This document shows positions 11,614-24,121 of a stretch of DNA of 32,394 nucleotides, piece after piece. The notes beneath the pieces are model-generated. The model searched no databases. It saw nothing but the letters and a program-made list of their open reading frames with translations, and had not been told where the DNA came from. Position 1 is the first letter of the stretch. Every line of letters begins with the position of its first letter. Source of the DNA: Gammaproteobacteria bacterium (GTDB taxonomy: Bacteria > Pseudomonadota > Gammaproteobacteria > Steroidobacterales > Woeseiaceae); contig JAOUGX010000034.1 of NCBI GenBank assembly GCA_029865385.1, positions 1 to 32,394 of the forward strand, given 5' to 3'. The translations under genes and the position numbers were made by a program.

Positions 11614-11693
11614 AAAAAAAAAGGGCGACTGCCAAATCCCCGTGCCACACCAATGTCGAAAATTGGTGTGGCCGGAGACCTTCGCAGTCGCCC
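11614..11693 (-). terminator. Riboswitch-controlled intrinsic terminator with nested hairpin
   Basis: On the minus strand, GGGCGACTGC (11693-11684) pairs perfectly with GCAGTCGCCC (11632-11623), followed directly by nine T (11622-11614). Inside this 10-bp stem is a second perfect 11-bp hairpin: GCCACACCAAT (11672-11662) with ATTGGTGTGGC (11654-11644) and a 7-nt loop. The stem begins at the base next to the P1 3' strand of aptamer 2, the usual arrangement for a riboswitch expression platform. It is probably relieved by glycine so that the cleavage operon is made (known for most gcvT glycine riboswitches; inferred here). Confidence 0.9.
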
Positions 11694-11860
11694 CTCTGTC
11701 CTGATTACCTGAGAGATCTTACGCCCTACCGGCCGCTTACCCCTTCGGCGGACCGTTGCCGGCCTCTCTCCAGAGCCAATCAGCGTATGCAGTCCGTTTG
11801 CCTGAGCGTTTCCGAGCGAGTTGCGCCTTCGGCGCCCCGTTAGGGGTCTCTTCTGCATAC
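11694..11860 (-). promoter_or_regulatory. Tandem glycine riboswitch (two aptamers) upstream of gcvT
   Basis: Two glycine aptamers lie in tandem on the minus strand. Aptamer 1 (about 11860-11785) has a perfect P1 of GTATGCAG with CTGCATAC, an AGAGACCCC start, the core GCCGAAGGCGCAA, and CTCAGGCAAACGGAC. Aptamer 2 (about 11775-11694) has GGAGAGAGG, the core CCGAAGGGGTAAGC, and TCTCAGGTAATCAGGACAGAG, with P1 CTCTG/CAGAG. These are the conserved elements of the gcvT glycine riboswitch class. The target, gcvT-gcvH-gcvPA-tpx-gcvPB, fits exactly. Linker and leader boundaries are approximate. Confidence 0.95.
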
Positions 11861-11867
11861 CCTGTGG

Positions 11868-21486: not shown

Positions 21487-21676
21487 GACGCCTCCTGCAG
21501 TGTACGATGCTGGCCTGGAAACCTTTCGACCCTAACGTTTTACCTCGGGGTCGTGCACTGTCGGCAACATATGAGCACTACCACTTCGTGTGGAATGCCT
21601 GTTGTTGTCACGGCTGACCCCACTTGTTGCTCCGGTTCGAGAGCGACGGCTGGTAACGGCACAGGCGGGAGGCGTC
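21487..21676 (+). ncRNA. ssrS: 6S RNA
   Basis: A 190-nt segment 60 bp after zapA, the conserved place of ssrS in gammaproteobacteria. Its ends form a closing stem: GACGCCTCCTGC (21487-21498) pairs with GCGGGAGGCGTC (21665-21676), with one G-T pair or mismatch near the inner end. The interior can form further imperfect helices, for example GACCC with GGGTC (about 21528-21557). Size, location and terminal stem fit 6S RNA, which binds sigma70 RNA polymerase. The central bubble was not verified by folding, and the exact ends are estimates. No convincing promoter was found. Confidence 0.75.
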
Positions 21677-22537: not shown

Positions 22538-22569
22538 TTGCTGGATTTTTGGCTTTTGTTGTATATACT
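22538..22569 (+). promoter_or_regulatory. Probable promoter of the histone-like gene
   Basis: TTGCTG (22538-22543) and TATATA (22562-22567, 18-nt spacer), overlapping TATACT (22564-22569). This predicts a leader of roughly 25 nt that carries the GGAG ribosome-binding site at 22590-22593. Confidence 0.5.
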
Positions 22570-22599
22570 CAACGCCGGGTACCCGACACGGAGAAAATG

Positions 22600-22920
22600 A
22601 TGGCTACCAAAAAGAAGGCAAGCAAGAAAGCTTCGAAGCGCAAAGTCGCCAAGAAGCGTAAGGCACCAAAGCGAGCAGCGAAGAAAAAAGCTGCGAAGCG
22701 TAAGACGAAGAGAAAGACCAAGCGCAAAACAAAGCGCAAGGCTAAAAAGAAAGTAGCGAAACGCAAGACCAAGAGAAAGGCCAAGCGCAAAGCCAAGAAG
22801 AAAGCCAAGAAGAAGGCTAAGAAGAAAGCCAAGAAAAAGGCCAAGCGCAGAACGAAGCGCAAAGCCAAGAAGAAAGCCAGCAAGCGGAAGTCCTCGAAAA
22901 AGGGCTCCAAGAAAGGCTAG
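22600..22920 (+). CDS. Lys/Arg/Ala-rich histone H1-like DNA-binding protein
   Basis: A 106-residue protein built almost entirely of Lys, Arg and Ala, with some Thr and Ser. It has repeated KAKK, KRKTKRK and KKAKKKAKKKAK units and no other domain. Such composition is seen in bacterial H1-like proteins and in the C-terminal tails of AlgP-type regulators; binding DNA or RNA is likely from charge alone. The start at 22600 is preferred over the adjacent ATG at 22597 because GGAG lies 6 nt before it. The gene has its own promoter and a palindromic terminator. The repeats are imperfect at DNA level (AAG/AAA and GCC/GCT alternate), so length variation between strains is likely. The exact role is unknown. 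Confidence 0.85.
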   Translation: MATKKKASKKASKRKVAKKRKAPKRAAKKKAAKRKTKRKTKRKTKRKAKKKVAKRKTKRKAKRKAKKKAKKKAKKKAKKKAKRRTKRKAKKKASKRKSSKKGSKKG

Positions 22921-23005: not shown

Positions 23006-23040
23006 GAAATATGCCCGCAATTGCGGGCATATTTCGTTTT
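23006..23040 (+). terminator. Intrinsic terminator formed by a 30-bp perfect palindrome
   Basis: Positions 23006-23020 are perfectly complementary to 23021-23035 with no spacer, core ATGCCCGCAATTGCGGGCAT, flanked by AT-rich arms and followed by GTTTT. It lies 86 bp after the histone-like gene and before rpiA, so it most likely ends the histone-like transcript. The symmetry would let it work in both directions. Confidence 0.8.
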
Positions 23041-23126
23041 GGGACCTGCGATCTGGTATCGCTTGCATCGATCGGCTAAGCTCACTGCCGAATCGAGCAT
23101 CGACCGGACAATCCGATATCTCCCAA

Positions 23127-23132
23127 TATACT
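23127..23132 (+). promoter_or_regulatory. Possible -10 element of rpiA
   Basis: TATACT at 23127-23132 lies 23 nt before the rpiA ATG and after the palindromic terminator. No good -35 is seen at 17 nt. Confidence 0.35.
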
Positions 23133-23155
23133 CGCAATCGGACAAACACGAGCCA

Positions 23156-23815
23156 ATGCAACAAGCCGAAAAGAAACAGAATGCCGCCAAGGCTGCATTG
23201 AATTACATTGAGAACGATATCGTTCTCGGAGTAGGAACTGGTTCTACGGTCAATTACCTGATTGACCTATTGCCGTCGGTGCGAGACCGTCTTCGAGCGA
23301 TCGTTTCCAGTTCCACCGCGACCACCGCCCGCCTTGAAGAACTCGGCTTCGAAGTCTCTCTGCTAAATGCGGTTGGTGATATCGACCTTTATATCGATGG
23401 CGCGGACGAGGCCAACAAGCACCTGCAACTGATCAAGGGTGGTGGCGGGGCGCTGACAAGAGAGAAGGTTCTGGCCGGCGCTGCGCGAAAATTCGTCTGC
23501 ATTATTGACGACAGCAAGCTCGTTGGCAGGCTTGGCGAGTTTCCACTGCCGATCGAGGTTATTCCGATGGCACAATCCTTTGTGGCAAGAAAAATCGCCA
23601 AAATGCGCGGCCAGCCAATCTGGCGGGAAAAATTCGTAACGGATAACGGGAACCACATTCTCGATATCCATAACCTGGTGATCAGCAACCCGCTGGAGAT
23701 GGAAACTCGCCTCAACCAGCTGCCTGGCGTGCTAACTGTAGGGATTTTTGCACACAGGCCGGCCGATGTGTTGATCATCGGCGAAGATTCAAATATTCGG
23801 GTAATGGGAAAGTAA
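23156..23815 (+). CDS. rpiA: Ribose-5-phosphate isomerase A
   Basis: A 219-residue RpiA that interconverts ribose 5-phosphate and ribulose 5-phosphate. The start [15 protein letters not shown] at 23156 gives the normal E. coli length (219); the frame is open 45 codons further but crosses the palindromic terminator. Motifs are [13 protein letters not shown] (about 24-36), the active-site DGADEAN (about 81-87), [14 protein letters not shown] (about 94-107) and DDSKLV. Only a weak purine run precedes the ATG. It is separated from zapA and 6S by the histone-like gene, unlike enterics where fau intervenes. A partner pentose-phosphate gene, rpe, lies 4 kb away. Confidence 0.97.
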
Positions 23816-23887
23816 AGATCCCCCAGCCAATATAAAGAAGGCCCGCAAGAGCGATAAAGAAGGCCCGCAAGAGCGGATTCGTTCACA

Positions 23888-23995
23888 CGGGACCAGGATT
23901 GACTCGGCTCATCCCTGAGCCTCGCCCTTCGGGCGCGCTTCGCCCGTCCAAAACGGCAATCCTGCCGTTTTGTCGAACCCAGGTTCTCATCCGGG
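23888..23995. repeat. REP-like triple-hairpin sequence inside a tRNA T-arm-like remnant
   Basis: Between GGACCAGGATT (23890-23900) and TCGAACCCAGGTTCTC (23973-23988) lie about 72 bp with three hairpins: GGCTCA/TGAGCC, CGCCC/GGGCG with loop TTC, and AAAACGGCA/TGCCGTTTT with loop ATCC. Joined together, the flanks resemble the reverse complement of a tRNA T-arm and are similar to the intact tRNA-Gln just downstream. The hairpins are seen directly; the remnant is inference. Confidence 0.6.
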
Positions 23996-23998
23996 AAG

Positions 23999-24058
23999 TC
24001 CCCCAGCCAATATAAAGAAGGCCCGCAAGAGCGGGCCTTCTTTATATTGGCTGGGGGA
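23999..24058 (-). terminator. 28-bp perfect hairpin terminator that overlaps the tRNA-Gln 3' end
   Basis: 23999-24026 and 24031-24058 are perfect reverse complements with a 4-nt loop. The core GGCCCGC/GCGGGCC is flanked by an A-rich and a T-rich arm (AAAGAA/TTCTTT), so it can end transcripts from both sides: tRNA-Gln on the minus strand and rpiA on the plus strand. The stem runs into the tRNA acceptor strand. Confidence 0.8.
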
Positions 24059-24121
24059 CTAGGATTCGAACCTAGGTTGGCGGAGTCAGAGTCCGCAGTC
24101 CTACCACTAGACGATCCCCCA
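24048..24121 (-). tRNA. tRNA-Gln (anticodon CTG)
   Basis: A 74-nt tRNA with encoded CCA. The acceptor stem is TGGGGGA with TCCCCCA, followed by discriminator G and CCA. The D-arm contains CTAGTGGTAGG, the anticodon stem is GCGGA/TCCGC around loop CTCTGAC (anticodon CTG, reads CAG), and the T-arm is CTAGG-TTCGAAT-CCTAG. All four stems pair. It lies about 180 bp downstream of rpsI on the same strand, so it might be cotranscribed with the ribosomal protein genes or use its own promoter; none was convincing. Confidence 0.95.

Follow-up and report, generated by a model that had tools for sequence, protein, structure and literature searches.

What does a perfect inverted repeat mean when one of its arms takes in the 3' end of a tRNA gene? 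The question is raised by the tRNA-Gln(CTG) locus of a Woeseiaceae genome of 3.92 Mb in 198 contigs; the window, the whole stretch of 32,394 nucleotides that was analysed, is contig 134 of this assembly. The tRNA gene, with CCA encoded, lies at 24121-24048 on the minus strand (ARAGORN; 61.7 bits with the Rfam tRNA model), and rplM-rpsI, both identified by Pfam, are located upstream of it. The arms of the repeat, 23997-24026 and 24031-24060, are 30 nt each, 100% complementary and separated by a loop of 4 nt, and they extend past the acceptor stem toward the T-stem of the tRNA. The preliminary description of this DNA was right about the perfection of the repeat, its 4-nt loop and the exact reverse complement of the tRNA 3' end in the trailer (30 of 30 positions are paired), but its length of 28 bp falls two pairs short. 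The window has seven listed inverted repeats with arms of 14 nt or more and no more than 80 nt between them, and this is the only perfect one; chance is therefore no credible source of it. The next ones are of 32 nt at 78% and of 20 nt at 90%. A fold-back chimera made in assembly is extremely improbable too: perfect foldbacks are a known kind of assembly artefact and the window is one of 198 contigs, but the same layout occurs with different sequences in independent assemblies of other species, and a like layout is present in E. coli K-12, so that this reading is already largely refuted.

The 30-bp inverted repeat is one piece of a larger tRNA-trailer module, all parts of which are on the minus strand; the preliminary description does not mention this module, nor the direct repeat and the conserved core near the inverted repeat. 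In the direction of the tRNA, the first arm (24031-24060) consists of the last tRNA bases, AGTCCCCCAGCCA, an A-rich spacer and the 5' arm of a terminator, GGCCCGC-TCTT-GCGGGCC, while the second arm (23997-24026) contains the 3' arm of the terminator, a T-rich stretch (24019-24009) and an inverted copy of the acceptor/CCA end (24010-23997), reading TTGGCTGGGGGACT. Next come GGATGAGAACCTGG, by eye a degenerate inverted T-arm (23979-23992), and GTTCGA (23973-23978), the 5' half of a duplicated T-loop. Within the GGATGAGAACCTGG region there is a GGATGAGAA-type motif which, by eye, many relatives and E. coli rtT also have. Inside the duplicated T-loop lies a conserved core of 73 nt (23900-23972), matched by a covariance model, R1, at 23896-23978 with an E-value of 7.8e-15; the model hit begins 70 nt beyond the end of tRNA-Gln, on the same strand, in the tRNA trailer. 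The hairpins of the core, two taken from the consensus structure and the remaining ones drawn by eye, are separated by GGAC, CGAG and GAGTCA motifs. The core is followed by ATCCTGGTCCC (23889-23899), the 3' half of the split T-arm and a truncated direct copy of the tRNA 3' end (identity 0.61; L009), by a partial extra copy of the terminator 3' half (23854-23875; direct repeat D1), and by a distal copy of the loop, the terminator 3' arm and the inverted tRNA end (23819-23853). The distal copy is 100% identical to 23999-24033 and forms with it an exact 35-nt direct repeat of tRNA 3' end and terminator arm, with a third copy at 23841-23875 of 77% identity. It ends 3 nt from the stop codon of the convergent neighbour, rpiA, contained in a reading frame at 23021-23815 on the plus strand (Pfam PF06026, E 3.7e-56, residues 94-256), the true start of which may lie further inside the frame. 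Judged from its sequence, the trailer contains an inverted and a direct copy of the 3' end of its host tRNA, the direct copy being split in the T-loop by the core.

Several other features of the window can be mentioned. A glycine riboswitch aptamer (Rfam, 66.4 bits) is present at 11780-11865 on the minus strand, upstream of a gene on the same strand which, named by sequence reading, is presumably of the glycine-cleavage type; this riboswitch may also include the imperfect inverted repeat of 32 nt at 11623-11693. A 6S RNA is encoded at 21489-21675 (plus strand) directly after zapA, and an extremely lysine-rich frame of 123 aa at 22549-22920 (plus strand), with KKAKKKAKRK repeats and a histone-like composition, has no Pfam match at E <=1e-5.

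The hairpin had been proposed to compete with the acceptor stem in the tRNA precursor, and the folding prediction divides this proposal in two. In precursors ending at 24011-24015 the acceptor-stem pair probabilities are predicted to be 0.81-1.0, and in RNA reading on to 23997 they are 0, the minimum free energy changing from -56.0 (terminated) to -80.2 kcal/mol (read-through to 23997). Competition is therefore predicted for the read-through RNA, and not for the terminated precursor, which keeps its acceptor stem; the cloverleaf would be kept if transcription terminates, and the acceptor strand would be trapped only in the read-through RNA. A terminator pattern is found in the window, GCGGGCC followed by TTCTTTAT with 6 T of 8, and as this T-rich stretch precedes the inverted tRNA end, transcription probably stops ahead of the anti-acceptor in most transcripts, which would then avoid the competition; this is the case that the preliminary description itself had named as refuting it. 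A scan for terminator patterns did not report the main hairpin behind tRNA-Gln, perhaps because the stem runs through the T stretch. Of 94 trailers, 68 contain a T-rich 8-mer, with 6 T or more, and 26 do not.

Comparison of the tRNA-Gln trailers in related genomes, the check proposed in the preliminary description, showed that the inverted repeat recurs. A search with the 322 bp at 23800-24121, which include the tRNA, gave matches in 34 of 40 related genomes; in many of these it was the tRNA alone that matched. The orthologous set comprises 30 tRNA-Gln(CTG) loci, all searched with R1, and nine of them have a core match at E <=0.01; three further loci are near this limit (L016, L014 and L036, E 0.011-0.02). 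The hairpin enters the tRNA by 13-16 nt in five of the nine core-bearing loci (G000, G009, G018, G023 and G003), i.e., in five of the 30 loci, and four of these deep hairpins are free of mismatches although the sequences of their spacers and stems differ; the remaining four core-bearing loci (L013, L025, L030 and L031) lack the deep extension. In the other 21 loci the reach into the tRNA is 8 nt or less (best in L012), one of them having an N in the trailer and one offering only 10 nt of trailer. The tRNA ends AGT, TGT, TCT and GGT before the C run correspond to inverted copies with ACT, ACA, AGAG and ACC, and since the correct complement accompanies each of these four different ends, the inverted copy changes with the tRNA.

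These data bear on the idea of a functional switch, in which the anti-acceptor would act as a kinetic switch or attenuator setting tRNA-Gln maturation through its competition with the acceptor stem. A perfect 30-bp competitor, an acceptor stem that disappears entirely from the predicted fold of the read-through RNA and the compensated sequence changes across relatives all speak for it. The T-rich stop ahead of the anti-acceptor argues against it, as do the 21 of 30 orthologous loci without a core hit at E <=0.01 (counting the three at 0.011-0.02), none of which has a hairpin of more than 8 nt into the tRNA, one being unreadable and one short, and the similar arrangements behind other tRNAs and tmRNA. 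Such a switch is considered distinctly unlikely.

Deep extension of the hairpin goes with the presence of the core: among 84 trailers with both a hairpin and a core unit, the hairpin reaches at least 8 nt into the tRNA end in 36, as against 2 of 34 controls, a set from which 20 members with real units had been dropped and in which one retained member, L056, lies in a core-unit locus. Deep extension without the core occurs in G038 and, slightly shorter, in G002; in both, the tRNA-Gln terminators (L012 and L021, respectively) are hairpins of 24-26 bp entering the tRNA by 7-8 nt, with no core hit. Intrinsic terminators of tRNA genes have a G+C-rich stem and then a T-rich stretch right after the CCA, as in the window; they differ in that the stem in the window continues unbroken through the A-rich spacer into acceptor and T-stem bases. 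Terminators with A- and T-rich flanks are common, and one could suppose an ordinary terminator the stem of which happens to run into the tRNA end, the more so as control tRNAs also have extended hairpins (L012 with 8 nt, L021 with 7 nt, and L120, where a short 10-bp hairpin is 15 nt deep). The 30 perfect pairs with an exact 35-nt copy nearby, and the enrichment of deep extension in core-bearing trailers, make this very improbable, and the comparative data already disfavour it. The fold-back copying suggested earlier as the origin of the repeat is compatible with that enrichment and with arms that are perfect despite their differing sequences; the inverted copy may plausibly have arisen in this way. 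Template switching at a terminator hairpin would yield exactly such inverted copies and would be their simplest source.

The relation between the module and its host tRNA was compared for 94 first units. The direct copy after the core has a median identity of 1.00 to the last 18 nt of the host tRNA and of 0.56 to other isotypes; it reaches at least 0.8 identity to the host end in 61 of the 94, the truncated copy of the window standing at 0.61. The inverted copy pairs with its own tRNA better than with the median of the other isotypes in 77 of 94 units, and no better in 17, and none of 1000 permutations reached the observed mean. The core behaves differently. Its similarity between genomes, with named contigs assigned to genomes by hand, has a median of 0.69 both for the same tRNA and for different tRNAs, and of 0.71 within a genome (P = 0.051); cores of different tRNAs in single genomes can be 85-96% alike. 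Vertical inheritance of each core together with its tRNA locus, which gave no signal (0.69 vs 0.69), was rejected. By sequence comparison, then, the copied ends follow the host tRNA and the core is independent of it.

A very similar core was found in 51 named stretches, from which records of the window's own genome may have been left out; 24 of them are named as Woeseiaceae or Woeseia, the others mostly from other or unspecified Gammaproteobacteria and Proteobacteria, and one is labelled Alphaproteobacteria. The covariance model R1 was built from 26 units, and 10 of the 12 pairs of its structure show changes on both sides. It retains tRNA-like flank bases at its edges, six on the left and four on the right, and therefore favours T-loop seats; its E-values are rough. 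In the genome of the window there are six R1 hits at E <=0.01, three in loci that hold a tRNA (Arg, Gln and Ser), one with the 3' half of a tRNA-Arg and two with neither. The tRNA-Arg half (L080; G000:C145:1-1678) is without a recognisable 5' half, is followed by the trailer module and is not called as a tRNA by ARAGORN. R1 hits are present in 88 of 274 genomes of the class, where the search used stricter filters. At the level of the phylum, 60 of the 299 genomes have hits; by kinship, 45 of the 60 fall outside the class, and 36 of these 45 belong to family f205. A tRNA is present in the fetched stretch in 26 of 29 loci from 29 genomes of the class (L086-L114), and a tRNA or tmRNA in 26 of 40 loci fetched by place, nearly all of which surround dispersed matches.

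Among 208 distinct units, a set that leaves out 47 hits in 40 loci picked for being dispersed and includes loci first found through a query containing the tRNA itself, 97 lie no more than 150 nt behind the end of a same-strand tRNA or tmRNA, with a count of zero for the opposite strand; for tRNA starts in the 150 nt downstream, the counts are 29 on the same strand and one on the opposite strand. The 97 hosts are Ser (43), Arg (19), Gln (12), Glu (11), Val (4), Tyr (4), tmRNA (2), Pro (1) and Phe (1), and 76 of the 208 units lack any same-strand tRNA in the 1 kb upstream. The units are single (106) or form arrays of two to four (44 arrays), spaced by 129-185 nt in 38 of 58 cases. In two loci, L050 (G018) and L202 (G470), it is tmRNA that precedes the module, and the core sits in a duplicate of the tmRNA T-loop region; in L187 (G324) a core unit lies 86 nt upstream of a small SRP RNA gene rather than of a tRNA. 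Near many modules of several genomes (L011, L014, L033, L050, L066, L075, L076 and L045) another motif, AAAGATCAATC(G/C)GCACC, was noticed by eye, either in this form, slightly varied or as the complement; it looks like a further dispersed repeat.

The seat of the core was determined by joining the flanks of 191 units and aligning them with 138 real tRNA genes, the loop windows being set by us. The alignment crosses the junction in 122 of the 191 units, and the junction falls in the T-loop in 113 of these, in the D-loop in six and in the anticodon loop in three. The T-loop seat is GTTCGA^ATC, at 18 nt (110 units) or 19 nt (three units) from the tRNA end; the other junctions are located 53-54 nt (three) or 68-69 nt (six) from the tRNA 3' end, and all nine D-loop and anticodon-loop seats are in copies of tRNA-Ser. 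Two damaged tRNA-Ser copies carry two cores each, L039 in the anticodon loop and the T-loop, and L159 in the D-loop and the T-loop. For the remaining 69 of the 191 units no tRNA alignment crossing the junction was found; by eye, part of them are degenerate T-loops and part are not tRNA at all. The left flank ends in GA in 160 and in CA in 20 of 201 units, many of which share the T-loop.

In several genomes outside the class (G318, G333, G350, G370 and G391) the core is mostly a dispersed repeat. In G350 one host repeat occurs in three versions: the copy of L223 near 820 is empty, that of L227 has a core at a first site, and those of L225 and of L223 near 476 have one at a second site, 20-odd nt away from the first. 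No bases were lost and the edge is ambiguous by one base; comparison of these versions shows clean insertion without target duplication. That insertion always takes place into hairpin loops holds for the tRNA seats and is not general, the G350 sites lying in or beside hairpin arms. Y1 transposases occur in 63 of 88 genomes with the core and 111 of 186 without it (odds ratio 1.7, P = 0.06; 274 genomes, uncorrected for phylogeny and genome size), and mobilisation by Y1/RAYT enzymes (IS200/IS605) is unsupported at this P value. Carriage of the module by phages or plasmids was rejected: searched with a 98-nt query of the core and its upstream motif, the phage set gave nothing and the plasmid set a single match, in an Aeromonas record of 4.9 Mb. 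Among RtT places in E. coli records, 18 of 14,988 are on plasmids.

A possible, though doubtful, explanation is that the core is a mobile or retro-mobile mini-element entering tRNA loops in the tRNA sense and sheltered there, with RtT of E. coli as a settled remnant. It would enter T-, D- and anticodon loops, typically after ...GA and almost only in the tRNA sense, and damaged extra tRNA copies or duplicated tRNA ends would shelter it. The near-exclusive tRNA-sense orientation hints at a single-stranded or RNA-level insertion step. REP/BIME, PATE and the Rickettsia palindromic elements are, like the core, short and hairpin-rich, with no evident reading frame and with clean insertions; the core differs from elements of the REP/BIME type in its preferred seat inside tRNA loops and its tRNA-sense orientation. 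A search of the open-licence full-text literature, with partly noisy terms, found nothing like this tRNA-loop insert.

The closest known counterpart of the module is RtT of E. coli (RF00391, rttR). In both, the element is located behind a tRNA on the same strand, the tRNA 3' end (ATCC...CCA) is repeated directly (in the window as a truncated copy), a complement of the tRNA end (GGGGAAGGAT in RtT) stands before a GGATGAGAA-type motif, and a hairpin core lies between GGTTCGA and ATCC, the split T-loop; by eye, GATGAGAA upstream of the core and CCCGAAGGG with a GAGT-type motif inside it are also common to both. At the tyrT/tyrV locus of E. coli K-12 the order is ATCCTTCCCCCACCACCA, a spacer, GGGGAAGGATGAGAAG..., GGTTCGA, hairpins with CCCGAAGGG, GAGTA and ATCCTTCCCCCACCACCA, and the annotated RttR small RNA ends exactly at the CCA of the second tRNA end. 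Fusion of a terminator to the inverted tRNA end and truncation of the downstream copy set the window member apart; the E. coli sequence compared has a spacer without such a hairpin, and full tandem copies. The Rfam RtT model lists the window neither at E <=1 nor at its gathering cut-off (45 bits) and has no match in the genome of the window at E <=0.01; because this test fails, the element is called RtT-like and not a member of RF00391. Sub-threshold Rfam hits on the region (SpF41, Thr_leader, miRNA models and Rev11) were dismissed as unrelated hairpin look-alikes. When ten other loci were compared with the RtT model, E. coli scored above the cut-off, and L088 (of the class) and L061 (of the family) scored 40.5 and 39.8 bits, respectively. 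RtT hits at E <=0.01 occur in 61 of the 274 class genomes, 18 of them above the cut-off; 43 genomes have hits of both models, 45 of R1 alone and 18 of RtT alone, and in 18 of 20 RtT loci the window-derived R1 hits the same place at E <=0.1. BLAST with the K-12 unit matched 4695 of 5426 complete E. coli genomes, in 1-14 places each (median 3). The window module is regarded as a new RtT-like variant. We know of no explanation for the origin of the RtT/tyrT repeats of E. coli.

Whether the trailer works as RNA can be judged in part from the pairs of its stems. Trailer hairpins have 107 G-U and 54 A-C cells, an excess such as RNA-level selection would give, and tRNA acceptor and T-stems have 50 and 0; the stems of the core hairpins have 8 of each, with no G-U excess, and RNA-level selection on the core was rejected on these equal counts. 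The evidence for the trailer hairpin being maintained as RNA is thus mixed. According to PMC4986893, RtT RNAs give Northern signals in Actinobacillus; the paper refers to Bosl and Kersten 1991 on amino-acid limitation and the stringent response. If functional, an RtT-like small RNA would be processed from read-through RNA, have a tRNA-like CCA end and act in trans, a role suggested for E. coli rtT in connection with the stringent response, its closing stem being formed by the inverted tRNA end and the downstream direct copy. The Actinobacillus signals and the cited link to the stringent response fit this proposal, and so do the annotation of E. coli rttR as a small RNA ending at the second CCA, the R1 hits in the RtT loci and the G-U excess of the trailer hairpins. 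It is made rather unlikely by the terminator that precedes the unit in the window and in many Woeseiaceae units, by the truncated downstream copy of the window, by the balanced core stems and by the patchiness of the family (the 88 of 274 class genomes, under the stricter filters).

The reading that we prefer, and hold to be fairly probable, is that of an RtT-like trailer repeat of which the inverted repeat forms the part running from the tRNA end through the terminator to the inverted tRNA end. The hairpin would be mainly the intrinsic terminator of the tRNA transcript, and most precursors would stop before the inverted tRNA end is made and fold normally. Read-through RNA would form the 30-bp helix and lose the acceptor stem, as a dead end or a fail-safe. 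The module would be kept and reshaped mostly by DNA processes, namely template switching at the hairpin of the terminator, recombination among the repeated tRNA ends and shifts of the core from one tRNA loop to another. The capture fold would then be chiefly a by-product and not a regulated switch. This is supported by deep hairpins in five of nine core-bearing tRNA-Gln loci against at most 8 nt in the 21 others, by the same order of parts in E. coli rtT and by core stems without a G-U excess. Against it stand the G-U excess of the trailer hairpins, the 17 of 94 inverted copies that match their host no better than other isotypes, the 26 of 94 trailers without a T-rich 8-mer together with the silence of the terminator scan on the main hairpin, the 76 of 208 units without a same-strand tRNA and the mere three of six hit loci with a tRNA in the genome of the window. 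The same-strand orientation is also unexpected for a purely DNA-level insertion into the palindromic TTCGAA.

With this module RtT, a small-RNA label in Rfam and annotation, is tied to a recurring architecture at tRNA genes, spanning Gammaproteobacteria and another class of the phylum, in which the tRNA end is copied forward and backward around a terminator and a conserved insert sits in the T-loop. The inserts in D- and anticodon loops and the clean empty sites lead to a testable proposal of what the tyrT repeats are and how they spread. The locus also names a bacterial setting in which, according to the folding prediction, a read-through RNA would unfold its own tRNA.
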